Below the pieces are notes generated by a model that had not been told where the DNA came from, did no database searches, and was given only the letters and a program-made list of their open reading frames with translations. 20,677 nucleotides of DNA from Utricularia gibba (Eukaryota; Streptophyta; Magnoliopsida; Lamiales; Lentibulariaceae): positions 1 through 20,677 of the forward strand of contig NEEC01000442.1 in assembly GCA_002189035.1 (NCBI GenBank), given 5' to 3'. Of this stretch, positions 1 to 20,677 are shown piece by piece; the first letter of the stretch is position 1, and each line of letters opens with the position of its first letter. Made by a program: the position numbers and the translations under genes.

Positions 1-318
1 TTTTTTGCCGAGCTACAAATGACTATGGGCCCGAGCTCGACTCGACCTCCTTCTCGATACCGTTGCCCCACGAGAGCGCCTCCTCAATATAAGCATGCGG
101 TTGAGAAAACCATTTTGGGTGCTCATGACATCCTAACTTCAATAAGTGCATCACGATTTCGTCGAGTAGGACCCGATGTGGCAAAGGAGTCAGACCGAAC
201 CTTGGGTCAGAACGAAGTTCACAACGACATCACCCGCCCAAAAACGACAAGCTTTTCCTTGAGAAACCATGTAGGCAGCCAATTAAAACCCAACGTTAAG
301 AAATGCATCAAGTTTTTT

Positions 319-623
319 GCCGAGCTACAAATGACTATGGGCCCGAGCTCGACTCGACCTCCTTCTCGATACCGTTGCCCCACGAGAGCGCCTCCTCAGA
401 TATAAAGCATGCGGTTGAGAAAACCATTTTGGGTGCTCATGACATCCTAACTTCAATAAGTGCATCACGATTTTCGTCGAGTAGGACCCGATGTGGCAAA
501 GGAACCTTGGGTCAGAACGAAGTTCACAACGACATCACCCGCCCAAAAACGACAAGCTTTTCCTTGAGAAACCATGTAGGCAGCCAATTAAAACCCAACG
601 TTAAGAAATGCATCAAGTTTTTT
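319..623 (+). repeat. Short unit with 10-base deletion (305-base variant, type example)
   Basis: The segment GTCAGACCGA is missing, so GGCAAAGGA runs straight into ACCTTGGG. The base pair GA flanks both deletion ends, as expected for a slip or microhomology event. The remainder matches the consensus, making it exactly 305 bases. Units with this or a very similar deletion begin at 319, 624, 1238, 2476, 3091, 3705, 4320, 4939, 5243, 5861, 6792, 7411, 8029, 8647, 10146, 11079 and 11382. The deletion occurs on both T (9) and G (8) backgrounds. Ten bases is about one helical turn. Confidence 0.9.
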
Positions 624-2475
624 GCCGAGCTACAAATGACTATGGGCCCGAGCTCGACTCGACCTCCTTCTCGATACCGTTGCCCACGAGAGCGCCTCCT
701 CAGATATAAAGCATGCGGTTGAGAAAACCATTTTGGGTGCTTATGACATCCTAACTTCAATAAGTGCATCACGATTTTCGTCGAGTAGGACCCGATGTGG
801 CAGGAACCTTGGTCAGAACGAAGTTCACAACGACATCACCCGCCCAAAAACGACAAGCTTTTCCTTGAGAAACCATGTAGGCAGCCAATTAAAACCCAAC
901 GTTAAGAAATGCATCAAGTTTTTTGCCGAGCCACAAATGACTATGGGCCCGAGCTCGACTCGACCTCCTTCTCGATACCGTTGCCCCACGAGAGCGCCTC
1001 CTCAATATAAAGCATGCGGTTGAGAAAACCATTTTGGGTGCTCATGACATCCTAACTTCAATAAGTGCATCACGATTTTCGTCGAGTAGGACCCGATGTG
1101 GCAAAGGAGTCAGACGAACCTTGGGTCAGAACGAAGTTCACAACGACATCACCCGCCCAAAAACGACAAGCTTTTCCTTGAGAAACCATGTAGGCAGCCA
1201 ATTAAAACCCAACGTTAAGAAATGCATCAAGTTTTTTGCCGAGCTACAAATGACTATGGGCCCGAGCTCGACTCGACCTCCTTCTCGATACCGTTGCCCC
1301 ACGAGAGCGCCTCCTCAGAATAAAGCATGCGGTTGAGAAAACCATTTTGGGTGCTCATGACATCCTAACTTCAATAAGTGCATCACGATTTTCGTCGAGT
1401 AGGACCCGATGTGGCAAAGAACCTTGGGTCAGAACGAAGTTCACAACGACATCACCCGCCCAAAAACGACAAGCTTTTCCTTGAGAAACCATGTAGGCAG
1501 CCAATTAAAACCCAACGTTAAGAAATGCATCAAGTTTTTTGCCGAGCCACAAATGACTATGGGCCCGAGCTCGACTCGACCTCCTCTCGATACCGTTGCC
1601 CCACGAGAGCGCCTCCTCAGATATAAAGCATGCGGTTGAGAAAACCATTTTGGGTGCTATGACATCCTAACTTCAATAAGTGCAGCACGATTTTCGTCGA
1701 GTAGGACCCGATGTGGCAAAGGAGTCAGGAACCTTGGGTCAGAACGAAGTTCACAACGACATCACCGCCCAAAAACGACAAGCTTTTCCTTGAGAAACCA
1801 TGTAGGCAGCCAATTAAAACCCAACGTTAAGAAATGCATCAAGTTTTTTGCCGAGCTACAAATGACTATGGCCCGAGCTCGACTCGACCTCCTTCTCGAT
1901 ACCGTTGCCCCACGAGAGCGCCTCCTCAGATATAAAGCATGCGGTTGAGAAAACCATTTTGGGTGCTCATGACATCCTAACTTCAATAAGTGCAGCACGA
2001 TTTTCGTCGAGTAGGACCCGATGTGGCAAAGGAGTCAGACCGAACCTTGGGTCAGAACGAAGTTCACAACGACATCACCCGCCAAAAACGACAAGCTTTT
2101 CCTTGAGAAACCATGTAGGCAGCCAATTAAAACCCAACGTTAAGAAATGCATCAAGTTTTTTGCCGAGCACAAATGACTATGGGCCCGAGCTCGACTCGA
2201 CCTCCTTCTCGATACCGTTGCCCACGAGAGCGCCTCCTCAGATATAAAGCATGCGGTTGAGAAAACCATTTTGGGTGCTCATGACATCCTAACTTCAATA
2301 AGTGCAGCACGATTTTTCGTCGAGTAGGACCCGATGTGGCAAAGGAGTCAGACCGAACCTTGGGTCAGAACGAAGTTCACAACGACATCACCCGCCCAAA
2401 ACGACAAGCTTTTCCTTGAGAAACCATGTAGGCAGCCAATTAAAACCCAACGTTAAGAAATGCATCAAGTTTTTT

Positions 2476-5242
2476 GCCGAGCCACAAATGACTATGGGCC
2501 CGAGCTCGACTCGACCTCCTTCTCGATACCGTTGCCCCACGAGAGCGCCTCCTCAGATATAAAGCATGCGGTTGAGAAAACCATTTTGGGTGCTCATGAC
2601 ATCCTAACTTCAATAAGTGCAGCACGATTTTCGTCGAGTAGGACCCGATGGCAAAGGAACCTTGGGTCAGAACGAAGTTCACAACGACATCACCGCCCAA
2701 AAACGACAAGCTTTTCCTTGAGAAACCATGTAGGCAGCCAATTAAAACCCAACGTTAAGAAATGCATCAAGTTTTTTGCCGAGCACAAATGACTATGGGC
2801 CCGAGCTCGACTCGACCTCCTTCTCGATACCGTTGCCCCACGAGAGCGCCTCCTCAGATATAAAGCATGCGGTTGAGAAAACCATTTTGGGTGCTCATGA
2901 CATCCTAACTTCAATAAGTGCATCACGATTTTCGTCGAGTAGGACCCGATGTGGCAAAGGAGTCAGACCGAACCTTGGGTCAGAACGAAGTTCACAACGA
3001 CATCACCGCCCAAAAACGACAAGCTTTTCCTTGAGAAACCATGTAGGCAGCCAATTAAAACCCAACGTTAAGAAATGCATCAAGTTTTTTGCCGAGCCAC
3101 AAATGACTATGGGCCGAGCTCGACTCGACCTCCTTCTCGATACCGTTGCCCACGAGAGCGCCTCCTCAGATATAAAGCATGCGGTTGAGAAAACCATTTT
3201 GGGTGCTCATGACATCCTAACTTCAATAAGTGCAGCACGATTTTCGTCGAGTAGGACCCGATGTGGCAAAGGAACCTTGGGTCAGAACGAAGTTCACACG
3301 ACATCACCCGCCCAAAAACGACAAGCTTTTCCTTGAGAAACCATGTAGGCAGCCAATTAAAACCCAACGTTAAGAAATGCATCAAGTTTTTTGCCGAGCT
3401 ACAAATGACTATGGGCCCGAGCTCGACTCGACCTCCTTCTCGATACCGTTGCCCCACGAGAGCGCCTCCTCAGATATAAAGCATGCGGTTGAGAAAACCA
3501 TTTTGGGTGCTATGACATCCTAACTTCAATAAGTGCATCACGATTTCGTCGAGTAGGACCCGATGTGGCAAAGGAGTCAGACCGAACCTTGGTCAGAACG
3601 AAGTTCACAACGACATCACCCGCCCAAAAACGACAAGCTTTTCCTTGAGAAACCATGTAGGCAGCCAATTAAAACCCAACGTTAAGAAATGCATCAAGTT
3701 TTTTGCCGAGCCACAAATGACTATGGGCCCGAGCTCGACTCGACCTCCTCTCGATACCGTTGCCCCACGAGAGCGCCTCCTCAATATAAAGCATGCGGTT
3801 GAGAAAACCATTTTGGGTGCTCATGACATCCTAACTTCAATAAGTGCAGCACGATTTCGTCGAGTAGGACCCGATGTGGCAAAGGAACCTTGGGTCAGAA
3901 CGAAGTTCACAACGACATCACCCGCCCAAAAACGACAAGCTTTTCCTTGAGAAACCATGTAGGCAGCCAATTAAAACCAACGTTAAGAAATGCATCAAGT
4001 TTTTTGCCGAGCCACAAATGACTATGGGCCCGAGCTCGACTCGACCTCCTTCTCGATACCGTTGCCCACGAGAGCGCCTCCTCAGATATAAAGCATGCGG
4101 TTGAGAAAACCATTTTGGGTGCTCATGACATCCTAACTTCAATAAGTGCAGCACGATTTTCGTCGAGTAGGACCCGATGTGGCAAAGGAGTCAGACCGAA
4201 CCTTGGGTCAGAACGAAGTTCACAACGACATCACCCGCCCAAAAACGACAAGCTTTTCCTTGAGAAACCATGTAGGCAGCCAATTAAAACCCAACGTTAA
4301 GAAATGCATCAAGTTTTTTGCCGAGCTACAAATGACTATGGGCCCGAGCTCGACTCGACCTCCTTCTCGATACCGTTGCCCCACGAGAGCGCCTCCTCAG
4401 ATATAAAGCATGCGGTTGAGAAAACCATTTTGGGTGCTTATGACATCCTAACTTCAATAAGTGCATCACGATTTTCGTCGAGTAGGACCCGATGTGGCAA
4501 GGAGGAACCTTGGGTCAGAACGAAGTTCACAACGACATCACCCGCCAAAAACGACAAGCTTTTCCTTGAGAAACCATGTAGGCAGCCAATTAAAACCCAA
4601 CGTTAAGAAATGCATCAAGTTTTTTGCCGAGCCACAAATGACTATGGGCCCGAGCTCGACTCGACCTCCTTCTCGATACCGTTGCCCCACGAGAGCGCCT
4701 CCTCAGATATAAAGCATGCGGTTGAGAAAACCATTTTGGGTGCTATGACATCCTAACTTCAATAAGTGCATCACGATTTTCGTCGAGTAGGACCCGATGT
4801 GGCAAAGGAGTCAGACCGAACCTTGGGTCAGAACGAAGTTCACAACGACATCACCGCCCAAAAACGACAAGCTTTTCCTTGAGAAACCATGTAGGCAGCC
4901 AATTAAAACCCAACGTTAAGAAATGCATCAAGTTTTTTGCCGAGCACAAATGACTATGGGCCCGAGCTCGACTCGACCTCCTTCTCGATACCGTTGCCCC
5001 ACGAGAGCGCCTCCTCAGATATAAAGCATGCGGTTGAGAAAACCATTTTGGGTGCTCATGACATCCTAACTTCAATAAGTGCAGCACGATTTTCGTCGAG
5101 TAGGACCCGATGTGGCAAAGGAACCTTGGGTCAGAACGAAGTTCACAACGACATCACCCGCCCAAAAACGACAAGCTTTTCCTTGAGAAACCATGTAGGC
5201 AGCCAATTAAAACCCAACGTTAAGAAATGCATCAAGTTTTTT
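2476..5242 (+). repeat. Higher-order dimer run 1: alternating short and full units
   Basis: Nine consecutive units (9-17) alternate short, full, short, full and so on. Each pair spans 614-619 bases. The unit at 4320 joins the pattern as a variant short form (GGCAAGGAGGAACC). The run ends at 5243, where two short units stand side by side. Confidence 0.75.
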
Positions 5243-6791
5243 GCCGAGCACAAATGACTATGGGCCCGAGCTCGACTCGACCTCCTTCTCGATACCGTTG
5301 CCCCACGAGAGCGCCTCCTCAGATATAAAGCATGCGGTTGAGAAAACCATTTTGGGTGCTCATGACATCCTAACTTCAATAAGTGCATCACGATTTTCGT
5401 CGAGTAGGACCCGATGTGGCAAAGGAACCTTGGGTCAGAACGAAGTTCACAACGACATCACCGCCCAAAAACGACAAGCTTTTCCTTGAGAAACCATGTA
5501 GGCAGCCAATTAAAACCCAACGTTAAGAAATGCATCAAGTTTTTTGCCGAGCCACAAATGACTATGGGCCCGAGCTCGACTCGACCTCCTTCTCGATACC
5601 GTTGCCCCACGAGAGCGCCTCCTCAGATATAAAGCATGCGGTTGAGAAAACCATTTTGGGTGCTCATGACATCCTAACTTCAATAAGTGCAGCACGATTT
5701 TCGTCGAGTAGGACCCGATGTGGCAAAGGAGTCAGACCGAACCTTGGGTCAGAACGAAGTTCACAACGACATCACCCGCCCAAAAACGACAAGCTTTTCC
5801 TTGAGAAACCATGTAGGCAGCCAATTAAAACCCAACGTTAAGAAATGCATCAAGTTTTTTGCCGAGCACAAATGACTATGGGCCCGAGCTCGACTCGACC
5901 TCCTTCTCGATACCGTTGCCCCACGAGAGCGCCTCCTCAGATATAAAGCATGCGGTTGAGAAAACCATTTTGGGTGCTTATGACATCCTAACTTCAATAA
6001 GTGCAGCACGATTTTCGTCGAGTAGGACCCGATGTGGCAAAGAACCTTGGGTCAGAACGAAGTTCACAACGACATCACCCGCCCAAAAACGACAAGCTTT
6101 TCCTTGAGAAACCATGTAGGCAGCCAATTAAAACCCAACGTTAAGAAATGCATCAAGTTTTTTGCCGAGCCACAAATGACTATGGGCCCGAGCTCGACTC
6201 GACCTCCTTCTCGATACCGTTGCCCCACGAGAGCGCCTCCTCAGATATAAAGCATGCGGTTGAGAAAACCATTTTGGGTGCTCATGACATCCTAACTTCA
6301 ATAAGTGCAGCACGATTTTCGTCGAGTAGGACCCGATGTGGCAAAGGAGTCAGACCGAACCTTGGGTCAGAACGAAGTTCACAACGACATCACCGCCCAA
6401 AAACGACAAGCTTTTCCTTGAGAAACCATGTAGGCAGCCAATTAAAACCCAACGTTAAGAAATGCATCAAGTTTTTTGCCGAGCACAAATGACTATGGGC
6501 CCGAGCTCGACTCGACCTCCTTCTCGATACCGTTGCCCCACGAGAGCGCCTCCTCAGATATAAAGCATGCGGTTGAGAAAACCATTTTGGGTGCTCATGA
6601 CATCCTAACTTCAATAAGTGCAGCACGATTTTCGTCGAGTAGGACCCGATGTGGCAAAGGAGTCAGACCGAACCTTGGGTCAGAACGAAGTTCACAACGA
6701 CATCACCCGCCCAAAAACGACAAGCTTTTCCTTGAGAAACCATGTAGGCAGCCAATTAAAACCCAACGTTAAGAAATGCATCAAGTTTTTT

Positions 6792-8951
6792 GCCGAGCCA
6801 CAAATGACTATGGGCCCGAGCTCGACTCGACCTCCTTCTCGATACCGTTGCCCCACGAGAGCGCCTCCTCAGATATAAAGCATGCGGTTGAGAAAACCAT
6901 TTTGGGTGCTCATGACATCCTAACTTCAATAAGTGCATCACGATTTTCGTCGAGTAGGACCCGATGTGGCAAAAGGAACCTTGGGTCAGAACGAAGTTCA
7001 CAACGACATCACCCGCCAAAAACGACAAGCTTTTCCTTGAGAAACCATGTAGGCAGCCAATTAAAACCCAACGTTAAGAAATGCATCAAGTTTTTTGCCG
7101 AGCCACAAATGACTATGGGCCCGAGCTCGACTCGACCTCCTTCTCGATACCGTTGCCCCACGAGAGCGCCTCCTCAGATATAAAGCATGCGGTTGAGAAA
7201 ACCATTTTGGGTGCTCATGACATCCTAACTTCAATAAGTGCATCACGATTTTCGTCGAGTAGGACCCGATGTGGCAAAGGAGTCAGACCGAACCTTGGGT
7301 CAGAACGAAGTTCACAACGACATCACCGCCCAAAAACGACAAGCTTTTCCTTGAGAAACCATGTAGGCAGCCAATTAAAACCCAACGTTAAGAAATGCAT
7401 CAAGTTTTTTGCCGAGCCACAAATGACTATGGGCCCGAGCTCGACTCGACCTCCTTCTCGATACCGTTGCCCCACGAGAGCCTCCTCAGATATAAAGCAT
7501 GCGGTTGAGAAAACCATTTTGGGTGCTCATGACATCCTAACTTCAATAAGTGCAGCACGATTTTCGTCGAGTAGGACCCGATGTGGCAAAGGAACCTTGG
7601 GTCAGAACGAAGTTCACAACGACATCACCCGCCCAAAAACGACAAGCTTTTCCTTGAGAAACCATGTAGGCAGCCAATTAAAACCCAACGTTAAGAAATG
7701 CATCAAGTTTTTTGCCGAGCCACAAATGACTATGGGCCCGAGCTCGACTCGACCTCCTTCTCGATACCGTTGCCCCACGAGAGCGCCTCCTCAGATATAA
7801 AGCATGCGGTTGAGAAAACCATTTTGGGTGCTCATGACATCCTAACTTCAATAAGTGCATCACGATTTTCGTCGAGTAGGACCCGATGTGGCAAAGGAGT
7901 CAGACCGAACCTTGGGTCAGAACGAAGTTCACAACGACATCACCCGCCCAAAAACGACAAGCTTTTCCTTGAGAAACCATGTAGGCAGCCAATTAAAACC
8001 CAACGTTAAGAAATGCATCAAGTTTTTTGCCGAGCACAAATGACTATGGGCCCGAGCTCGACTCGACCTCCTTCTCGATACCGTTGCCCCACGAGAGCGC
8101 CTCCTCAGATATAAAGCATGCGGTTGAGAAAACCATTTTGGGTGCTCATGACATCCTAACTTCAATAAGTGCAGCACGATTTTCGTCGAGTAGGACCCGA
8201 TGTGGCAAAGGAACCTTGGGTCAGAACGAAGTTCACAACGACATCACCCGCCCAAAAACGACAAGCTTTTCCTTGAGAAACCATGTAGGCAGCCAATTAA
8301 AACCCAACGTTAAGAAATGCATCAAGTTTTTTGCCGAGCCACAAATGACTATGGGCCCGAGCTCGACTCGACCCCCTCTCGATACCGTTGCCCCACGAGA
8401 GCGCCTCCTCAGATATAAAGCATGCGGTTGAGAAAACCATTTTGGGTGCTCATGACATCCTAACTTCAATAAGTGCAGCACGATTTTCGTCGAGTAGGAC
8501 CCGATGTGGCAAAGGAGTCAGACCGAACCTTGGGTCAGAACGAAGTTCACAACGACATCACCCGCCCAAAAACGACAAGCTTTTCCTTGAGAAACCATGT
8601 AGGCAGCCAATTAAAACCCAACGTTAAGAAATGCATCAAGTTTTTTGCCGAGCACAAATGACTATGGGCCCGAGCTCGACTCGACCTCCTTCTCGATACC
8701 GTTGCCCCACGAGAGCGCCTCCTCAGATATAAAGCATGCGGTTGAGAAAACCATTTTGGGTGCTCATGACATCCTAACTTCAATAAGTGCATCACGATTT
8801 TCGTCGAGTAGGACCCGATGTGGCAAAGGAACCTTGGGTCAGAACGAAGTTCACAACGACATCACCCGCCCAAAAACGACAAGCTTTTCCTTGAGAAACC
8901 ATGTAGGCAGCCAATTAAAACCCAACGTTAAGAAATGCATCAAGTTTTTTT
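6792..8951 (+). repeat. Higher-order dimer run 2: alternating short and full units
   Basis: Seven consecutive units (23-29) alternate short and full without a break, with pair lengths of 618-619 bases. Between this run and run 1, units 18-22 show the same alternation interrupted by one extra full unit (6478). That suggests a single insertion or unequal exchange within a once continuous dimer array. Confidence 0.75.
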
Positions 8952-9436
8952 GCCGAGCACAAATGACTATGGGCCCGAGCTCGACTCGACCTCCTTCTCG
9001 ATACCGTTGCCCCACGAGAGCGCCTCCTCAGATATAAAGCATGCGGTTGAGAAAACCATTTTGGGTGCTCATGACATCCTAACTTCAATAAGTGCAGCAC
9101 GATTTTCGTCGAGTAGGACCCGATGTGGCAAATCAGACCGAACCTTGGGTCAGAACGAAGTTCACAACGACATCACCGCCCAAAAACGACAAGCTTTTCC
9201 TTGAGAAACCATGTAGGCAGCCAATTAAAACCCAACGTTAAGAAATGCATCAAGTTTTTTGCCGAGCCACAAATGACTATGGGCCCGAGCTCGACTCGAC
9301 CTCCTTCTCGATACCGTTGCCCACGAGAGCGCCTCCTCAGATATAAAGCATGCGGTTGAGAAAACCATTTTGGGTGCTCATGACATCCTAACTTCAATAA
9401 GTGCAGCACGATTTTCGTCGAGTAGGACCCGATGTG

Positions 9437-9572
9437 GCACCTTGGGTCAGAACGGCCCAAAACGACAAGCTTTCCTTGAGAAACCATGTAGGCAGCCAAT
9501 TAAAACCCAACGTTAAAATGCATCAAGTTTTTTGCCGAGCACAAATGATGGGCCCGAGCTCGACTCGAATAC
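9437..9572 (+). repeat. Damaged stretch across two units (multiple larger deletions)
   Basis: The unit at 9261 is just 273 bases. It lost 16 bases between GTGGCA and CCTTGGG, and about 21 bases between CAGAACG and GCCC. It also has TTAAAATG for TTAAGAAATG. The next unit (9534, 299 bases) lost 3 bases in AAATGACTATG and 11 between the two CTCGA words. At least five deletions fall within about 136 bases, while the units around are ordinary. Candidate causes are an assembly or consensus seam, or a true recombination scar. Confidence 0.85.
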
Positions 9573-9832
9573 CGTTGCCCCACGAGAGCGCCTCCTCAGA
9601 TATAAAGCATGCGGTTGAGAAAACCATTTTGGGTGCTCATGACATCCTAACTTCAATAAGTGCAGCACGATTTTCGTCGAGTAGGACCCGATGTGGCAAA
9701 GGAGTCAGACCGAACCTTGGGTCAGAACGAAGTTCACAACGACATCACCGCCCAAAAACGACAAGCTTTTCCTTGAGAAACCATGTAGGCAGCCAATTAA
9801 AACCCAACGTTAAGAAATGCATCAAGTTTTTT

Positions 9833-12000
9833 GCCGAGCCACAAATGACTATGGGCCGAGCTCGACTCGACCTCCTTCTCGATACCGTTGCCCACGAGAG
9901 CGCCTCCTCAGATATAAAGCATGCGGTTGAGAAAACCATTTTGGGTGCTCATGACATCCTAACTTCAATAAGTGCAGCACGATTTTCGTCGAGTAGGACC
10001 CGATGTGGCAAAGGAGTCAGACCGAACCTTGGGTCAGAACGAAGTTCACAACGACATCACCCGCCCAAAAACGACAAGCTTTTCCTTGAGAAACCATGTA
10101 GGCAGCCAATTAAAACCCAACGTTAAGAAATGCATCAAGTTTTTTGCCGAGCTACAAATGACTATGGGCCCGAGCTCGACTCGACCTCCTTCTCGATACC
10201 GTTGCCCCACGAGAGCGCCTCCTCAGATATAAAGCATGCGGTTGAGAAAACCATTTTGGGTGCTCATGACATCCTAACTTCAATAAGTGCATCACGATTT
10301 TCGTCGAGTAGGACCCGATGTGGCAAAGGAACCTTGGGTCAGAACGAAGTTCACAACGACATCACCCGCCCAAAAACGACAAGCTTTTCCTTGAGAAACC
10401 ATGTAGGCAGCCAATTAAAACCCAACGTTAAGAAATGCATCAAGTTTTTTGCCGAGCCACAAATGACTATGGGCCCGAGCTCGACTCGACCTCCTTCTCG
10501 ATACCGTTGCCCCACGAGAGCGCCTCCTCAGATATAAAGCATGCGGTTGAGAAAACCATTTTGGGTGCTCATGACATCCTAACTTCAATAAGTGCAGCAC
10601 GATTTTCGTCGAGTAGGACCCGATGTGGCAAAGGAGTCAGACCGAACCTTGGGTCAGAACGAAGTTCACAACGACATCACCGCCCAAAAACGACAAGCTT
10701 TTCCTTGAGAAACCATGTAGGCAGCCAATTAAAACCCAACGTTAAGAAATGCATCAAGTTTTTTGCCGAGCTACAAATGACTATGGGCCCGAGCTCGACT
10801 CGACCTCCTTCTCGATACCGTTGCCCACGAGAGCGCCTCCTCAGATATAAAGCATGCGGTTGAGAAAACCATTTTGGGTGCTCATGACATCCTAACTTCA
10901 ATAAGTGCATCACGATTTTCGTCGAGTAGGACCCGATGTGGCAAAGGAGTCAGACCGAACCTTGGGTCAGAACGAAGTTCACAACGACATCACCCGCCCA
11001 AAAACGACAAGCTTTTCCTTGAGAAACCATGTAGGCAGCCAATTAAAACCCAACGTTAAGAAATGCATCAAGTTTTTTGCCGAGCCACAAATGACTATGG
11101 GCCCGAGCTCGACTCGACCTCCTTCTCGATACCGTTGCCCCACGAGAGCGCCTCCTCAGATATAAAGCATGCGGTTGAGAAAACCATTTTGGGTGCTCAT
11201 GACATCCTAACTTCAATAAGTGCAGCACGATTTTCGTCGAGTAGGACCCGATGTGGCAAAGGAACCTTGGGTCAGAACGAAGTTCACAACGACATCACCC
11301 CCAAAAACGACAAGCTTTTCCTTGAGAAACCATGTAGGCAGCCAATTAAAACCCAACGTTAAGAAATGCATCAAGTTTTTTGCCGAGCACAAATGACTAT
11401 GGGCCCGAGCTCGACTCGACCTCCTTCTCGATACCGTTGCCCCACGAGAGCGCCTCCTCAGATATAAAGCATGCGGTTGAGAAAACCATTTTGGGTGCTC
11501 ATGACATCCTAACTTCAATAAGTGCATCACGATTTTCGTCGAGTAGGACCCGATGTGGCAAAAGGAACCTTGGGTCAGAACGAAGTTCACAACGACATCA
11601 CCGCCCAAAAACGACAAGCTTTTCCTTGAGAAACCATGTAGGCAGCCAATTAAAACCCAACGTTAAGAAATGCATCAAGTTTTTTGCCGAGCCACAAATG
11701 ACTATGGGCCCGAGCTCGACTCGACCTCCTTCTCGATACCGTTGCCCCACGAGAGCGCCTCCTCAGATATAAAGCATGCGGTTGAGAAAACCATTTTGGG
11801 TGCTCATGACATCCTAACTTCAATAAGTGCAGCACGATTTTCGTCGAGTAGGACCCGATGTGGCAAAGGAGTCAGACCGAACCTTGGGTCAGAACGAAGT
11901 TCACAACGACATCACCCGCCCAAAAACGACAAGCTTTTCCTTGAGAAACCATGTAGGCAGCCAATTAAAACCCAACGTTAAGAAATGCATCAAGTTTTTT
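9833..12000 (+). repeat. Subfamily dimer run: beta and alpha units alternate
   Basis: Seven units (33-39) alternate type beta (CCA with G) and type alpha (CTA with T), in the order beta, alpha, beta, alpha, beta, alpha-like (GAGCACAAATG with T, at 11382), beta. The order is defined by substitutions rather than length, so homopolymer error cannot explain it. Confidence 0.7.
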
Positions 12001-12298
12001 GCCGAGCACAATGACTATGGGCCCGAGCTCGACTCGACCTCCTTCTCGATACCGTTGCCCCACGAGAGCGCCTCCTCAGATATAAAGCATGCGGTTGAGA
12101 AAACCATTTTGGGTGCTCATGACATCCTAACTTCAATAAGTGCAGCACGATTTTCGTCGAGTAGGACCCGATGTGGCAAAGGAGTCAGACCGAACCTTGG
12201 GTCAGAACGAAGTTCACAACGACATCACCCGCCCAAAAACGACAAGCTTTTCCTTGAGAAACCATGTAGGCAGCCAATTAAAACCCAACGTTAAGAAA

Positions 12299-12455
12299 TG
12301 CATCAAGTTTTTTGCCGAGCTACAAATGACTATGGGCCCGAGCTCGACTCGACCTCCTTCTCGATACCGTTGCCCCACGAGAGCGCCTCCTCAGATATAA
12401 AGCATGCGGTTGAGAAAACCATTTTGGGTGCTCATGACATCCTAACTTCAATAAG
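12299..12455 (+). repeat. Half-unit 1 of the internal duplication (157 bases)
   Basis: This is the first half of the reference unit. It starts with TGCATCA, followed by a T-run and CGAG, and it ends just before the next TGCATCA at 12456. It holds TTGAGAAA at 12410-12417 and CCTAAC at 12441. The second half has the corresponding TTGAGAAA at 12569 and CCCAAC at 12599. Aligned by hand, the 58 columns ending at the TG junction match at 38 and the 24-column start box at 19. The middle of about 77 bases is more diverged but keeps scattered matches such as ACGA and GCC. Confidence 0.85.
12330..12344 (+). repeat. Palindrome cluster and CTCGA direct repeat within the unit
   Basis: GGGCCC is followed at once by GAGCTC, the core of the eight-base palindrome CGAGCTCG, and then by a second CTCGA word. 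The cluster recurs once per unit, reduced to GGCCC or GGGCCG in some copies. It is the strongest short dyad symmetry in the consensus and a possible protein-binding or structure-forming site. No binding protein can be named from sequence. Confidence 0.5.
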
Positions 12456-12613
12456 TGCATCACGATTTTCGTCGAGTAGGACCCGATGTGGCAAAGGAGT
12501 CAGACCGAACCTTGGGTCAGAACGAAGTTCACAACGACATCACCCGCCCAAAAACGACAAGCTTTTCCTTGAGAAACCATGTAGGCAGCCAATTAAAACC
12601 CAACGTTAAGAAA
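12456..12613 (+). repeat. Half-unit 2 of the internal duplication (158 bases)
   Basis: This is the second half of the reference unit, homologous to half-unit 1. It begins TGCATCACGATTTTCG and includes the indel hotspot, the AAGCTT site and TTGAGAAACCAT. Its middle is 3 bases longer than that of half 1. The 10-base deletion that defines the short units falls in this less conserved middle. In type-beta units TGCATCA is altered to TGCAGCA, away from the half-1 sequence. A length of 157-158 is within the range of nucleosome-sized satellite monomers. Confidence 0.85.
12499..12526 (+). repeat. Imperfect 17-base direct repeat at the indel hotspot
   Basis: GTCAGACCGAA (12499-12509) is followed 17 bases on by GTCAGAACGAA (12516-12526), with one mismatch in 11. 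The short-unit deletion removes 12499-12508 and so the first copy. Lesser deletions in other units fall at the same place: GGAGTCAGGAACC (units 1541, 15146, 15458), GGCAAATCAGACC (8952), GGAGTCAGACGAACC (925), GAGTCAGACCTTGGG (20142). Repeat-mediated slippage is plausible, though the main deletion ends do not match a full 17-base excision. Confidence 0.7.
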
Positions 12614-12628
12614 TGCATCAAGTTTTTT

Positions 12629-12943
12629 GCCGAGCCACAAATGACTATGGGCCCGAGCTCGACTCGACCTCCTTCTCGATACCGTTGCCCCACGAGAGCG
12701 CCTCCTCAGATATAAAGCATGCGGTTGAGAAAACCATTTTGGGTGCTCATGACATCCTAACTTCAATAAGTGCAGCACGATTTTCGTCGAGTAGGACCCG
12801 ATGTGGCAAAGGAGTCAGACCGAACCTTGGGTCAGAACGAAGTTCACAACGACATCACCCGCCCAAAAACGACAAGCTTTTCCTTGAGAAACCATGTAGG
12901 CAGCCAATTAAAACCCAACGTTAAGAAATGCATCAAGTTTTTT
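12629..12943 (+). repeat. Reference unit, type beta (GAGCCAC ... GCAGCACG)
   Basis: This 315-base unit differs from its type-alpha neighbour at just two sites: C for T in GAGCCAC, and G for T in GCAGCACG. By hand scoring 26 units carry CCA, of which 20 also carry G. A third form, GAGCACAAATG, occurs in 15 units and is one base shorter. It pairs with G in 10 of them and is probably type beta minus one C. The alpha bases match the homologous positions in the other half of the unit, so beta looks derived. Confidence 0.93.
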
Positions 12944-15900
12944 GCCGAGCACAAATGACTATGGCCCGAGCTCGACTCGACCTCCTTCTCGATACCGTTG
13001 CCCCACGAGAGCGCCTCCTCAGATATAAAGCATGCGGTTGAGAAAACCATTTTGGGTGCTTATGACATCCTAACTTCAATAAGTGCAGCACGATTTTCGT
13101 CGAGTAGGACCCGATGTGGCAAAGGAGTCAGACCGAACCTTGGGTCAGAACGAAGTTCACAACGACATCACCCGCCCAAAAACGACAAGCTTTTCCTTGA
13201 GAAACCATGTAGGCAGCCAATTAAAACCCAACGTTAAGAAATGCATCAAGTTTTTTGCCGAGCTACAAATGACTATGGGCCCGAGCTCGACTCGACCTCC
13301 TTCTCGATACCGTTGCCCCACGAGAGCGCCTCCTCAGATATAAAGCATGCGGTTGAGAAAACCATTTTGGGTGCTTATGACATCCTAACTTCAATAAGTG
13401 CATCACGATTTTCGTCGAGTAGGACCCGATGTGGCAAAGGAGTCAGACCGAACCTTGGGTCAGAACGAAGTTCACAACGACATCACCCGCCCAAAAACGA
13501 CAAGCTTTTCCTTGAGAAACCATGTAGGCAGCCAATTAAAACCCAACGTTAAGAAATGCATCAAGTTTTTTGCCGAGCCACAAATGACTATGGGCCCGAG
13601 CTCGACTCGACCTCCTTCTCGATACCGTTGCCCACGAGAGCGCCTCCTCAGATATAAAGCATGCGGTTGAGAAAACCATTTTGGGTGCTCATGACATCCT
13701 AACTTCAATAAGTGCAGCACGATTTTCGTCGAGTAGGACCCGATGTGGCAAAGGAGTCAGACCGAACCTTGGGTCAGAACGAAGTTCACAACGACATCAC
13801 CCGCCCAAAAACGACAAGCTTTTCCTTGAGAAACCATGTAGGCAGCCAATTAAAACCCAACGTTAAGAAATGCATCAAGTTTTTTTGCCGAGCTACAAAT
13901 GACTATGGGCCCGAGCTCGACTCGACCTCCTTCTCGATACCGTTGCCCCACGAGAGCGCCTCCTCAGATATAAAGCATGCGGTTGAGAAAACCATTTTGG
14001 GTGCTCATGACATCCTAACTTCAATAAGTGCATCACGATTTTCGTCGAGTAGGACCCGATGTGGCAAAGGAGTCAGACCGAACCTTGGGTCAGAACGAAG
14101 TTCACAACGACATCACCCGCCCAAAAACGACAAGCTTTTCCTTGAGAAACCATGTAGGCAGCCAATTAAAACCCAACGTTAAGAAATGCATCAAGTTTTT
14201 TGCCGAGCCACAAATGACTATGGGCCCGAGCTCGACTCGACCTCCTTCTCGATACCGTTGCCCCACGAGAGCGCCTCCTCAGATATAAAGCATGCGGTTG
14301 AGAAAACCATTTTGGGTGCTCATGACATCCTAACTTCAATAAGTGCATCACGATTTTCGTCGAGTAGGACCCGATGTGGCAAAGAGTCAGACCGAACCTT
14401 GGGTCAGAACGAAGTTCACAACGACATCACCCGCCCAAAAACGACAAGCTTTTCCTTGAGAAACCATGTAGGCAGCCAATTAAAACCCAACGTTAAGAAA
14501 TGCATCAAGTTTTTTGCCGAGCTACAAATGACTATGGGCCCGAGCTCGACTCGACCTCCTTCTCGATACCGTTGCCCCACGAGAGCGCCTCCTCAGATAT
14601 AAAGCATGCGGTTGAGAAAACCATTTTGGGTGCTTATGACATCCTAACTTCAATAAGTGCATCACGATTTTCGTCGAGTAGGACCCGATGTGGCAAAGGA
14701 GTCAGACCGAACCTTGGGTCAGAACGAAGTTCACAACGACATCACCCGCCCAAAAACGACAAGCTTTTCCTTGAGAAACCATGTAGGCAGCCAATTAAAA
14801 CCCAACGTTAAGAAATGCATCAAGTTTTTTGCCGAGCTACAAATGACTATGGGCCCGAGCTCGACTCGACCTCCTTCTCGATACCGTTGCCCCACGAGAG
14901 CGCCTCCTCAGATATAAAGCATGCGGTTGAGAAAACCATTTTGGGTGCTCATGACATCCTAACTTCAATAAGTGCATCACGATTTTCGTCGAGTAGGACC
15001 CGATGTGGCAAAGGAGTCAGACCGAACCTTGGGTCAGAACGAAGTTCACAACGACATCACCCGCCCAAAAACGACAAGCTTTTCCTTGAGAAACCATGTA
15101 GGCAGCCAATTAAAACCCAACGTTAAGAAATGCATCAAGTTTTTTGCCGAGCTACAAATGACTATGGGCCCGAGCTCGACTCGACCTCCTTCTCGATACC
15201 GTTGCCCCACGAGAGCGCCTCCTCAGATATAAAGCATGCGGTTGAGAAAACCATTTTGGGTGCTCATGACATCCTAACTTCAATAAGTGCAGCACGATTT
15301 TCGTCGAGTAGGACCCGATGTGGCAAAGGAGTCAGGAACCTTGGGTCAGAACGAAGTTCACAACGACATCACCCGCCCAAAAACGACAAGCTTTTCCTTG
15401 AGAAACCATGTAGGCAGCCAATTAAAACCCAACGTTAAGAAATGCATCAAGTTTTTTGCCGAGCCACAAATGACTATGGGCCCGAGCTCGACTCGACCTC
15501 CTTCTCGATACCGTTGCCCCACGAGAGCGCCTCCTCAGATATAAAGCATGCGGTTGAGAAAACCATTTTGGGTGCTCATGACATCCTAACTTCAATAAGT
15601 GCAGCACGATTTTCGTCGAGTAGGACCCGATGTGGCAAAGGAGTCAGGAACCTTGGGTCAGAACGAAGTTCACAACGACATCACCCGCCCAAAAACGACA
15701 AGCTTTTCCTTGAGAAACCATGTAGGCAGCCAATTAAAACCCAACGTTAAGAAATGCATCAAGTTTTTTGCCGAGCACAAATGACTATGGGCCCGAGCTC
15801 GACTCGACCTCCTTCTCGATACCGTTGCCCCACGAGAGCGCCTCCTCAGATATAAAGCATGCGGTTGAGAAAACCATTTTGGGTGCTCATGACATCCTAA

Positions 15901-16713
15901 CTTCAATAAGTGCAGCACGATTTTCGTCGAGTAGGACCCGATGTGGCAAAGGAGTCAGACCGAACCTTGGGTCAGAACGAAGTTCACAACGACATCACCC
16001 GCCCAAAAACGACAAGCTTTTCCTTGAGAAACCATGTAGGCAGCCAATTAAAACCCAACGTTAAGAAATGCATCAAGTTTTTTGCCGAGCTACAAATGAC
16101 TATGGGCCCGAGCTCGACTCGACCTCCTTCTCGATACCGTTGCCCCACGAGAGCGCCTCCTCAGATATAAAGCATGCGGTTGAGAAAACCATTTTGGGTG
16201 CTCATGACATCCTAACTTCAATAAGTGCATCACGATTTTCGTCGAGTAGGACCCGATGTGGCAAAGGAGTCAGACCGAACCTTGGGTCAGAACGAAGTTC
16301 ACAACGACATCACCCGCCCAAAAACGACAAGCTTTTCCTTGAGAAACCATGTAGGCAGCCAATTAAAACCCAACGTTAAGAAATGCATCAAGTTTTTTGC
16401 CGAGCCACAAATGACTATGGGCCCGAGCTCGACTCGACCTCCTTCTCGATACCGTTGCCCCACGAGAGCGCCTCCTCAGATATAAAGCATGCGGTTGAGA
16501 AAACCATTTTGGGTGCTCATGACATCCTAACTTCAATAAGTGCAGCACGATTTTCGTCGAGTAGGACCCGATGTGGCAAAGGAGTCAGACCGAACCTTGG
16601 GTCAGAACGAAGTTCACAACGACATCACCCGCCCAAAAACGACAAGCTTTTCCTTGAGAAACCATGTAGGCAGCCAATTAAAACCCAACGTTAAGAAATG
16701 CATCAAGTTTTTT

Positions 16714-19700
16714 GCCGAGCTACAAATGACTATGGGCCCGAGCTCGACTCGACCTCCTTCTCGATACCGTTGCCCACGAGAGCGCCTCCTCAAATATAAA
16801 GCATGCGGTTGAGAAAACCATTTTGGGTGCTCATGACATCCTAACTTCAATAAGTGCAGCACGATTTTCGTCGAGTAGGACCCGATGTGGCAAAAGGAGT
16901 CAGACCGAACTTGGGTCAGAACGAAGTTCACAACGACATCACCGCCAAAAAACGACAAGCTTTTCCTTGAGAAACCATGTAGGCAGCCAATTAAAACCCA
17001 ACGTTAAGAAATGCATCAAGTTTTTTGCCGAGCTACAAATGACTATGGGCCCGAGCTCGACTCGACCTCCTTCTCGATACCGTTGCCCCACGAGAGCGCC
17101 TCCTCAGATATAAAGCATGCGGTTGAGAAAACCATTTTGGTGCTCATGACATCCTAACTTCAATAAGTGCATCACGATTTTCGTCGAGTAGGACCCGATG
17201 TGGCAAAGGAGTCAGACCGAACCTTGGGTCAGAACGAAGTTCACAACGACATCACCCGCCCAAAAAACGACAAGCTTTTCCTTGAGAAACCATGTAGGCA
17301 GCCAATTAAAACCCAACGTTAAGAATGCATCAAGTTTTTTTGCCGAGCTACAAATGACTATGGCCCGAGCTCGACTCGACCTCCTTCTCGATACCGTTGC
17401 CCACGAGAGCGCCTCCTCAGATATAAAGCATGCGGTTGAGAAAACCATTTTGGGTGCTCATGACATCCTAACTTCAATAAGTGCATCACGATTTTCGTCG
17501 AGTAGGACCCGATGTGGCAAAGGAGTCAGACCGAACTTGGGTCAGAACGAAGTTCACAACGACATCACCCGCCCAAAAACGACAAGCTTTTCCTTGAGAA
17601 ACCATGTAGGCAGCCAATTAAAACCCAACGTTAAGAAATGCATCAAGTTTTTTTGCCGAGCTACAAAATGACTATGGGCCCGAGCTCGACTCGACCTCCT
17701 TCTCGATACCGTTGCCCCACGAGAGCGCCTCCTCAGATATAAAGCATGCGGTTGAGAAAACCATTTTGGGTGCTTATGACATCCTAACTTCAATAAGTGC
17801 ATCACGATTTTCGTCGAGTAGACCCGATGTGGAAAAAGGAGTCAGACCGAACTGGTCAGAACGAAGTTCACAACGACATCACCCGCCCAAAAACGACAAG
17901 CTTTTCCTTGAGAAACCATGTAGGCAGCCAATTAAAACCCAACGTTAAGAAATGCATCAAGTTTTTTGCCGAGCTACAAATGACTATGGGCCCGAGCTCG
18001 ACTCGACTCCTTCTCGATACCGTTGCCCCACGAGAGCGCCTCCTCAGATATAAAGCATGCGGTTGAGAAAACCATTTTGGGTGCTCATGACATCCTAACT
18101 TCAATAAGTGCATCACGATTTTCGTCGAGTAGGACCCGATGTGGCAAAGGAGTCAGACCGAACCTTGGGTCAGAACGAAGTTCACAACGACATCACCCGC
18201 CCAAAAACGACAAGCTTTTCCTTGAGAAACCATGTAGGCAGCCAATTAAAACCCAACGTTAAAATGCATCAAGTTTTTTGCCGAGCACAAATGACTATGG
18301 GCCCGAGCTCGACTCGACCTCCTTCTCGATACCGTTGCCCCACGAGAGCGCCTTCAAATATAAAGCATGCGGTTGAGAAACCATTTTGGGTGCTCATGAC
18401 ATCCTAACTTCAATAAGTGCATCACGATTTTCGTCGAGTAGGACCCGATGTGGCAAAGGAGTCAGACCGAACCTTGGGTCAGAACGAAGTTCACAACGAC
18501 ATCACCCGCCCAAAAACGACAAGCTTTTCCTTGAGAAACCATGTAGGCAGCCAATTAAAACCCAACGTTAAGAAATGCATCAAGTTTTTTGCCGAGCTAC
18601 AAATGACTATGGCCCGAGCTCGACTCGACCTCCTTCTCGATACCGTTGCCCCACGAGAGCGCCTCCTCAGATATAAAGCATGCGGTTGAGAAAACCATTT
18701 TGGTGCTCATGACATCCTAACTTCAATAAGTGCATCACGATTTTCGTCGAGTAGGACCCGATGTGGCAAAGGAGTCAGACCGAACCTTGGTCAGAACGAA
18801 GTTCACAACGACATCCCGCCCAAAAACGACAAGCTTTTCCTTGAGAAACCATGTAGGCAGCCATTAAAACCAACGTTAAGAAATGCATCAAGTTTTTTGC
18901 CGAGCCAAATGACTATGGGCCCGAGCTCGACTCGACCTCCTTCTCGATACCGTTGCCCCACGAGAGCGCCTCCTCAGATATAAAGCATGCGGTTGAGAAA
19001 ACCATTTTGGGTGCTTATGACATCCTAACTTCAATAAGTGCACGCACGATTTTCGTCGAGTAGGACCGATGTGGCAAAGGAGTCAACCGAACCTTGGTCA
19101 GAACGAAGTTCACAACGACATCACCCGCCCAAAAAGACAAGCTTTTCCTTGAGAAACCATGTAGGCAGCCAATTAAAACCCAACGTTAAGAAATGCATCA
19201 AGTTTTTTGCCGAGCTACAAATGACTATGGGCCCGAGCTCGACTCGACCTCCTTCTCGATACCGTTGCCCCACGAGAGCGCCTCCTCAGATATAAAGCAT
19301 GCGGTTGAGAAAACCATTTTGGGTGCTCATGACATCCTAACTTCAATAAGTGCATCACGATTTTCGTCGAGTAGGACCCGATGTGGCAAAAGGAGTCAGA
19401 CCGAACTTGGGTCAGAACGAAGTTCACAACGACATCCCGCCCAAAAACGACAAGCTTTTCCTTGAGAAACCATGTAGGCAGCCAATTAAAACCCAACGTT
19501 AAGAAATGCATCAAGTTTTTTGCCGAGCTACAAATGACTATGGGCCCGAGCTCGACTCGACCTCCTTCTCGATACCGTTGCCCCACGAGAGCGCCTCCTC
19601 AATATAAAGCATGCGGTTGAGAAAACCATTTTGGGTGCTCATGACATCCTAACTTCAATAAGTGCATCACGATTTTCGTCGAGTAGACCCGATGTGGAAA

Positions 19701-20677
19701 AAGGAGTCAGACCGAACTTGGGTCAGAACGAAGTTCACAACGACATCACCCGCCAAAAACGACAAGCTTTTCCTTGAGAAACCATGTAGGCAGCCAATTA
19801 AAACCCAACGTTAAAAATGCATCAAGTTTTTTGCCGAGCCACAAATGACTATGGGCCGAGCTCGACTCGACCTCCTTCTCGATACCGTTGCCCCACGAGA
19901 GCGCCTGATATAAAGCATGCGGTTGAGAAAACCATTTTGGGTGCTCATGACATCCTAACTTCAATAAGTGCAGCACGATTTTCGTCGAGTAGGACCCGAT
20001 GTGGCAAAGGAGTCAGACCGAACCTTGGGTCAGAACGAAGTTCACAACGACATCACCCGCCCAAAAACGACAAGCTTTTCCTTGAGAAACCATGTAGGCA
20101 GCCAATTAAAACCCAACGTTAAGAAATGCATCAAGTTTTTTGCCGAGCTACAAATGACTATGGCCCGAGCTCGACTCGACCTCCTTCTCGATACCGTTGC
20201 CCACGAGAGCGCCTCCTCAGATATAAAGCATGCGGTTGAGAAAACCATTTTGGGTGCTCATGACATCCTAACTTCAATAAGTGCAGCACGATTTTCGTCG
20301 AGTAGGACCCGATGTGGCAAAGGAGTCAGACCTTGGGTCAGAACGAAGTTCACAACGACATCACCCGCCCAAAAACGACAAGCTTTTCCTTGAGAAACCA
20401 TGTAGGCAGCCAATTAAAACCCAACGTTAAGAAATGCATCAAGTTTTTTGCCGAGCCACAAATGACTATGGGCCCGAGCTCGACTCGACCCTTCTCGATA
20501 CCGTTGCCCCACGAGAGCGCCTCCTCAAATATAAAGCATGCGGTTGAGAAAACCATTTTGGGTGCTCATGACATCCTAACTTCAATAAGTGCAGCACGAT
20601 TTTCGTCGAGTAGGACCGATGTGGCAAAGGAGTCAGACCGAACCTTGGGTCAGAACGAAGTTCACAACGACATCACC
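16714..20677 (+). repeat. Array zone 3: indel-rich units (units 55-67)
   Basis: Units begin at 16714, 17027, 17342, 17655, 17968, 18280, 18591, 18899, 19209, 19522, 19833, 20142 and 20450, the last cut by the window end. Essentially every unit carries several one- or two-base indels, mostly losses in homopolymers: GGGCCC to GGCCC, CCCC to CCC, GAACC to GAAC, GGGTCAG to GGTCAG, TTAAGAAATG to TTAAAATG. There are also a few insertions (AAAAAACG, CTACAAAATG). The 10-base deletion is absent. Units 17027 to 19522 are almost all of the GAGCTAC/GCATCACG type. Either the units have diverged or the long-read consensus is poorer here; I favour the second because the changes are concentrated in homopolymers. 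Confidence 0.8.
20450..20677 (+). repeat. Terminal partial unit (cut by window end)
   Basis: A type-beta unit (GAGCCAC with GCAGCACG) of 228 bases stops inside CATCACC. It has CGACCCTTCTC for CGACCTCCTTCTC, CAAATATAAAG for CAGATATAAAG, and AGGACCGATG for AGGACCCGATG. The array clearly continues beyond the window, as it does before base 1, where just the T6 end of a preceding unit is present. Confidence 0.95.

Follow-up and report, generated by a model that had tools for sequence, protein, structure and literature searches.

The 315-base repeat unit at positions 12299-12613 raises the question of whether a satellite unit that appears single by its main period is itself built of two copies of a shorter monomer. 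The unit lies in a window of 20,677 nucleotides, i.e. the whole stretch of DNA that was analysed, and an earlier note had read it as an ancient duplication of a 157-base monomer. Our analysis confirms that the two halves of the unit are related. The finding is real and ordinary in kind, and was partly over-interpreted in that note. The unit is probably a dimer of two related monomers of ~157 bases, a two-monomer higher-order repeat, and the analysis reveals both a hidden half-period and the monomer bases that stayed recognisable.

The array and its 315-base unit

The window (20.7 kb) is occupied by a single continuous satellite array, end to end:

1..20677, no strand assigned: satellite array, from the Tandem Repeats Finder rows, the anchor spacing and the alignment and lengths of the units

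Units were cut at ATGCATCAAG, whose 66 anchors yield 65 complete units in addition to the partial ends. The majority consensus of the unit is 315 bp, the complete units range between 273 and 316 bases, and the mean between-unit identity in ungapped columns is 99.3% (0.993) for the 65 units. The G+C content of the array is 47-49%, and the consensus carries one HaeIII site per unit and four TaqI sites. Tandem Repeats Finder reported two rows, 1-9439 with a period of 313 and 9564-20677 with a period of 315; only these two periods were returned and hence the half-period is hidden behind the main one, as had been claimed. Around the gap between the two rows, the stretch 9246-9817 comprises a pair of damaged units, 273 and 299 bases long, with several larger deletions.

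The locus thus has the properties of a satellite, being a long head-to-tail array of near-identical units of more than 100 bp that encodes no gene product. The array is regarded as not coding because every frame of the consensus contains at least one stop per unit and frame-shifting deletions are frequent among the units; in addition, an Rfam search of positions 12000-13300 with E values up to 1 gave zero matches. A coding reading, for which it could be said that 315 is a multiple of three and that one of the frames is interrupted by only one stop in each unit, was rejected since this frame is broken by deletions. By a rough estimate, a single-stop frame arises by chance in about one of four sequences of such composition when all six frames are counted. 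If the array has any role, it most likely helps to package a heterochromatic region, which may be centromeric, pericentromeric or subtelomeric.

The consensus shows no depletion of CpG dinucleotides (observed/expected 1.02), and across the array substitutions affect only 2 of 2437 CpG-site cells, compared to 100 of 17,683 cells elsewhere. Such retention would be surprising in a heavily methylated satellite and may reflect weak CpG methylation in the host or a very young array.

Two related halves and the reach of their similarity

The unit was divided as follows:

12299..12455, no strand assigned: half A (157 bases), identical to half B at 98 of 149 paired bases
12456..12613, no strand assigned: half B (158 bases), from the same alignment with half A

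The alignment that gives these counts extends over 166 columns. The landmarks on which the earlier note had relied were located at the positions it gave: TGCATCA at 12299 and 12456 (and again at 12614), TTGAGAAA at 12410 and 12569, and CCTAAC at 12441 with its counterpart CCCAAC at 12599. Their measured offsets of 157, 159 and 158 agree with the proposed spacing of about 157-159. The second TGCATCA is polymorphic across the array, with T in 31 of 65 units and G (TGCAGCA) in 34. The hand alignment, with its two gaps and roughly 55 identities over 80 columns, was closely reproduced by computation (53 in 80, two gap runs).

That the halves of a single sequence should be so similar by chance is strongly disfavoured, to the point of being nearly negligible. 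With both halves subjected to dinucleotide shuffling, none of 5000 shuffles aligned globally as well as the real halves under any of three scoring schemes. In local alignment the real score was reached by 0, 0 and 103 of 5000 shuffles; the last figure, obtained under harsh costs (2/-3/-5/-2), speaks for chance and counts against a dimer. When the consensus, which has G at unit position 162, was cut into two fixed halves, the local score was lower and was reached by 2 of 2000 shuffles. Circular self-alignment of the consensus argues against chance as well, since its best match (score 52, 70 of 110 columns identical, offset 158) was equalled by 0 of 40,236 dinucleotide shuffles, the top shuffle scoring 48. 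Among ungapped circular shifts, 157 and 158 were best with 118 of 315 matches, followed by 100 for the next shift at a mean of 25%. The 157.5-base harmonic was the second strongest in both A/T dinucleotide tracks, but in the G/C track it did not rank among the first six.

The halves within a unit, with 98 of 149 paired bases alike, are related but far less similar than the units are to each other (0.993), as is expected of the monomers of a dimer. The attribute "ancient" is hence appropriate relative to the array (~66% identity between halves versus 99.3% between units), but an absolute date is impossible. The whole-consensus alignment of the halves (97 of 147 identical, K2P 0.46) includes chance-aligned columns and its distance is unfit as a date. 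The differences between A and B comprise 12 transitions and 38 transversions; transitions are not in excess, as would follow from chance pairing in some of the aligned columns, and this counts against the dimer.

To describe how far the homology extends, the following segments are distinguished:

12369..12476, no strand assigned: first copy of the demonstrably homologous segment (108 bases, over the A/B border), 71 of 110 columns in local alignment
12527..12634, no strand assigned: second copy of this segment, over the border into the next unit, same local alignment (71 of 110)
12409..12476, no strand assigned: conserved block, copy 1 (unit 111-178), 47 of 68 consensus columns identical to copy 2
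12569..12634, no strand assigned: conserved block, copy 2 (unit 271-315 and 1-21 of the next unit), 47 of 68 columns identical to copy 1, with further evidence from the segment shuffles given below
12320..12368, no strand assigned: middle of half A (49 bases), not recognisably similar to its counterpart in half B (2357 of 5000 shuffles as good)
12477..12526, no strand assigned: middle of half B (50 bases), containing an 11-base direct repeat and, near unit 199, the site at which deletions concentrate in other units

The first two rows are the two sides of the full local alignment of unit 12299-12613. Segments of the consensus were further tested separately against 5000 shuffles, globally and locally and under two schemes each. 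For unit 111-157 against 271-315, no shuffle was as good globally under either scheme, and 0 and 1 were as good locally. For unit 1-21 against 158-178, one shuffle per scheme was as good globally, and 13 and 16 were as good locally. The similarity of unit 71-110 to 230-270 is weak (282 and 72 shuffles as good globally, 4560 and 4709 locally), and the two middles are at chance level (2357 and 2456 globally, 3368 and 3793 locally). Strong similarity is confined to a block of ~67 bases per half; it is weak over the next ~40 bases and undetectable over the remaining 49 or 50. The middle had been described as more diverged; it is indeed dissimilar, but not merely diverged, as it stands at chance when taken alone. 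Judged by the alignments, 68 to 108 of the ~157 bases (about 40 to 70 percent of the half length) are demonstrably homologous. Of the proposed duplication of a 157-base monomer, the two-part 315-base unit with related halves is retained, but the homology shown covers ~67 and up to 108 bases.

These limits bear on an alternative in which only a segment of ~67-108 bases was duplicated or inserted twice, the middles are of unrelated origin and the unit was of 315 bases from the start. The chance-level middles and the ceiling of 108 homologous bases are as this alternative predicts, and the dissimilar middle third of each half, together with the weak adjoining ~40 bases, counts against the dimer. 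Nonetheless, the middles are nearly equal in length (49 and 50 bases) in spite of their unlike sequences, which supports the dimer and would be accidental for unrelated inserts, and the homologous landmarks hold their offsets of 157-159. We consider duplication of the segment alone unlikely, and we infer a full-length 157-base duplication because the spacing is near-equal.

For the dimer, the mechanism of amplification that we infer would start from two adjacent monomers, identical at first or already diverged, that became a single amplification unit. This 315-base unit would then have spread and stayed homogeneous through conversion, unequal exchange or rolling-circle amplification in a 315-base register, because halves at ~66% identity would pair poorly with each other. 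Duplication followed by divergence and co-amplification of diverged neighbours would both be compatible with this one array. Doubling and subsequent amplification of the dimer is a textbook route in evolution and a common way for satellites to grow.

Layers below the half were also considered. Six of eight comparisons between parts of the same half were at chance, and those between the first and second half of B (5 of 1000 shuffles) and between its first and last third (10 of 1000) are marginal given that eight tests were made. Neither between nor within the halves did inverted similarity exceed chance (1030, 207 and 370 of 2000 shuffles). Three short inverted pairs of 10-12 bases were observed. 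The direct repeat in the deletion-prone middle of half B (12499-12526) consists of two 11-base copies, 10 of 11 bases identical, 17 apart; the marginal similarity inside half B has a different offset.

Comparison with known satellites

According to the passages on repeat structure in a review (PMC5615363), satellite units often retain remnants of earlier duplications, and monomer lengths of 150-180 or 300-360 bp are frequent. In the dimeric higher-order repeats of beetles and in higher-order alpha satellite, as described there, adjacent diverged monomers are amplified jointly, as in the present array. Both systems, including alpha satellite with its monomer of ~170 bp, are likened here by description and not by sequence (PMC5615363), and a point of difference is that the array has no CENP-B-box-like motif above chance. 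A similar likeness by description exists to the Vaccinium satellites VaccSat1, VaccSat2, VaccSat5 and VaccSat6, whose monomer is reported to consist of two adjacent subunits (PMC7290377). The subunits of VaccSat2 are given as 74-34%, a range that spans the 66% of the halves in our case; its unit of 201-240 bp differs from the 315 bases found here, as do the lengths of the other VaccSat units (PMC7290377).

Among satellites of similar length, SSUsat from Spisula subtruncata has a unit of 315 bp, a G+C content of 44% compared to 47-49% here, and a single HaeIII cut per unit as in the array; TaqI, a single cutter of SSUsat, cuts the array consensus 4 times, and no higher-order organisation was found in SSUsat, unlike in the array (PMC5537241). 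Identity with SSUsat was rejected, as the sites of the printed primers SSUsatPR1 and SSUsatPR2 are absent and 466 and 440 of 500 shuffled primers matched as well. The tandem repeat X43.1 from Silene latifolia has a consensus of 313 bp (PMC3212565); the printed 50-nt probe 12H5 scored 18 of 100 on the unit, a value reached by 198 of 500 shuffles, and identity with it was likewise rejected. The CvA core of bivalves measures 156 bp and forms dimers of 312-314 bp with 53-54% A+T, and it is related to BIV160, whose relatives have two conserved motifs in common (PMC5874043, PMC5139131). Of the printed CvA and BIV160 primers, three of 21-25 nt lie within the repeats and the fourth lies outside the CvA repeat. 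The CvA core primer was equalled by 421 of 500 shuffles and the BIV160 primers by 409 and 138, but this is a thin test, as a distant relative could escape such short primers. The printed probes and primers of 15Ssp and of a TRAYC-like repeat gave no match to the unit, being short queries that distant relatives would escape. The 314-bp Allium repeat pAc074 was set beside the unit by length only.

Maize centromeric CentC has a monomer of ~156 bp, a length like that found here. A CentC sequence, k-mers of which occur in print in PMC3053214 and PMC5480163, is dissimilar to the unit, being equalled by 396 of 500 shuffles on one strand and 280 of 500 on the other. The sequences of knob180 and pAL1 showed no similarity to it either. 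In a search of the literature for k-mers of the unit on both strands, which covers sequences printed in the text and not those in figures or supplements, no satellite paper printed the unit; single-k-mer matches in one CAR-T paper and one mite paper were set aside as chance. Searched by length, the literature yielded no satellite that combines 315 bp with 157 bp, and "315-bp" led to SSUsat only. Exact-pattern scans of viral contigs and prokaryote genomes and a blastn search against plasmids returned no relatives of the unit, as expected for a satellite of a eukaryote, the kind of host that the type of array suggests. In these collections neither a simple 157-base array nor a related species was encountered, which counts against the dimer.

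Variation along the array

The two half types alternate throughout the array. Half-type anchors number 66 for A and 66 for B, and successive anchors form 65 AB steps, 65 BA steps and a single BB step. This exception (18221 to 18530, 309 bases) encloses an A half whose anchor is short of one base, and the alternation is therefore complete. Within the 20,677-base window, gain, loss or slip of a half unit was not found, which suggests that exchange at present keeps to the 315-base register.

Variation among the 65 units consists chiefly of small deletions. Substitution cells amount to 102 in total and to 30 without the five common columns (unit 23, 135, 162, 214 and 216). Deletion events number 14 in the 134 sites of the conserved blocks, 68 in the 100 sites of the middles and 41 in the 81 sites of the weak flanks; variable sites are 17 of 134, 50 of 100 and 34 of 81, and substitution cells 49, 48 and 5, respectively. 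The blocks conserved from half to half hence have the fewest deletions, a weak hint of constraint.

Such constraint would be central to another explanation, in which a shared block recurring every ~157 bases is under selection, e.g. for a centromere or heterochromatin protein, and the remaining sequence drifts; the duplication would be real, and the similarity would reflect constraint and not age. The few deletions and variable sites of the blocks are in its favour, but their support from circular shifts is merely suggestive, as 20 of 314 shifts had as few deletions and 38 of 314 as few variable sites. Substitutions, in contrast, are not fewer in the blocks, and outside the five common columns 139 of 314 shifts had as few. 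Furthermore, the deletions concentrate in one hot spot and in C runs and may partly be base-calling errors. A CENP-B-box-like site (NTTCGNNNNANNCGGGN) occurs at chance level, the best site on the consensus matching 6 of 9 core bases and 300 of 300 shuffles reaching at least 6. Altogether we regard selection on the block as decidedly unlikely.

The suggestion of a nucleosome-sized monomer stands as an argument from length (~157), but a 10-base AA/TT or WW signal is not found: 207 and 141 of 500 shuffles were as periodic for AA/TT and WW, respectively, and 43 of 500 for G/C dinucleotides. It is very unlikely, though conceivable, that the ~67-base block is a selected protein-binding or nucleosome-phasing site placed every 157-158 bases, with spacers of which only the length is kept. 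In that case the array would act as a functional ruler, e.g. a centromeric one, with a box unlike the CENP-B box. As a defined sequence, the block lends itself to assays of nucleosome placement or protein binding.

One-base deletions recur in short C and G runs at unit 75, 245, 249 and 36, with a gap at unit 75 in 11 of 65 units and at unit 245 in 15 of 65. They look like base-calling or assembly errors as plausibly as real variants.

There are also hints of an additional layer above the 315-base unit of the presumed dimer. Near unit 199, 18 of the 65 units lack 8-16 consensus bases, and every one of them belongs to the first 37. Within these 37 units (304-11670), a range chosen after the pattern was seen, the deletion tends to alternate: neighbours agree in 22% of cases, and only 3 of 5000 permutations gave a value as low. 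Over all 65 units, agreement at lag 1 is not low (p 0.21) and agreement at lag 2 is higher than in every permutation, although clustering by itself can also yield a high lag-2 agreement. Unit position 23 alternates as well (lag 1 p 0.02, lag 2 p 0.001), whereas position 162 has no pattern at lag 1 or 2 and the joint state of both positions has a weak one (lag 1, p 0.06); these p values come from five tracks at six lags each and are uncorrected. The data suggest a local two-unit layer of ~620 bases in the first 37 units.

Two common polymorphisms are T/G at unit 162 (e.g. position 12460) in a ratio of 31:34 and C/T/deletion at unit 23 in a ratio of 26:24:15. Their states are associated, the combinations T with T and C with G each occurring in 20 of 65 units, which points to a mixture of two types of unit.
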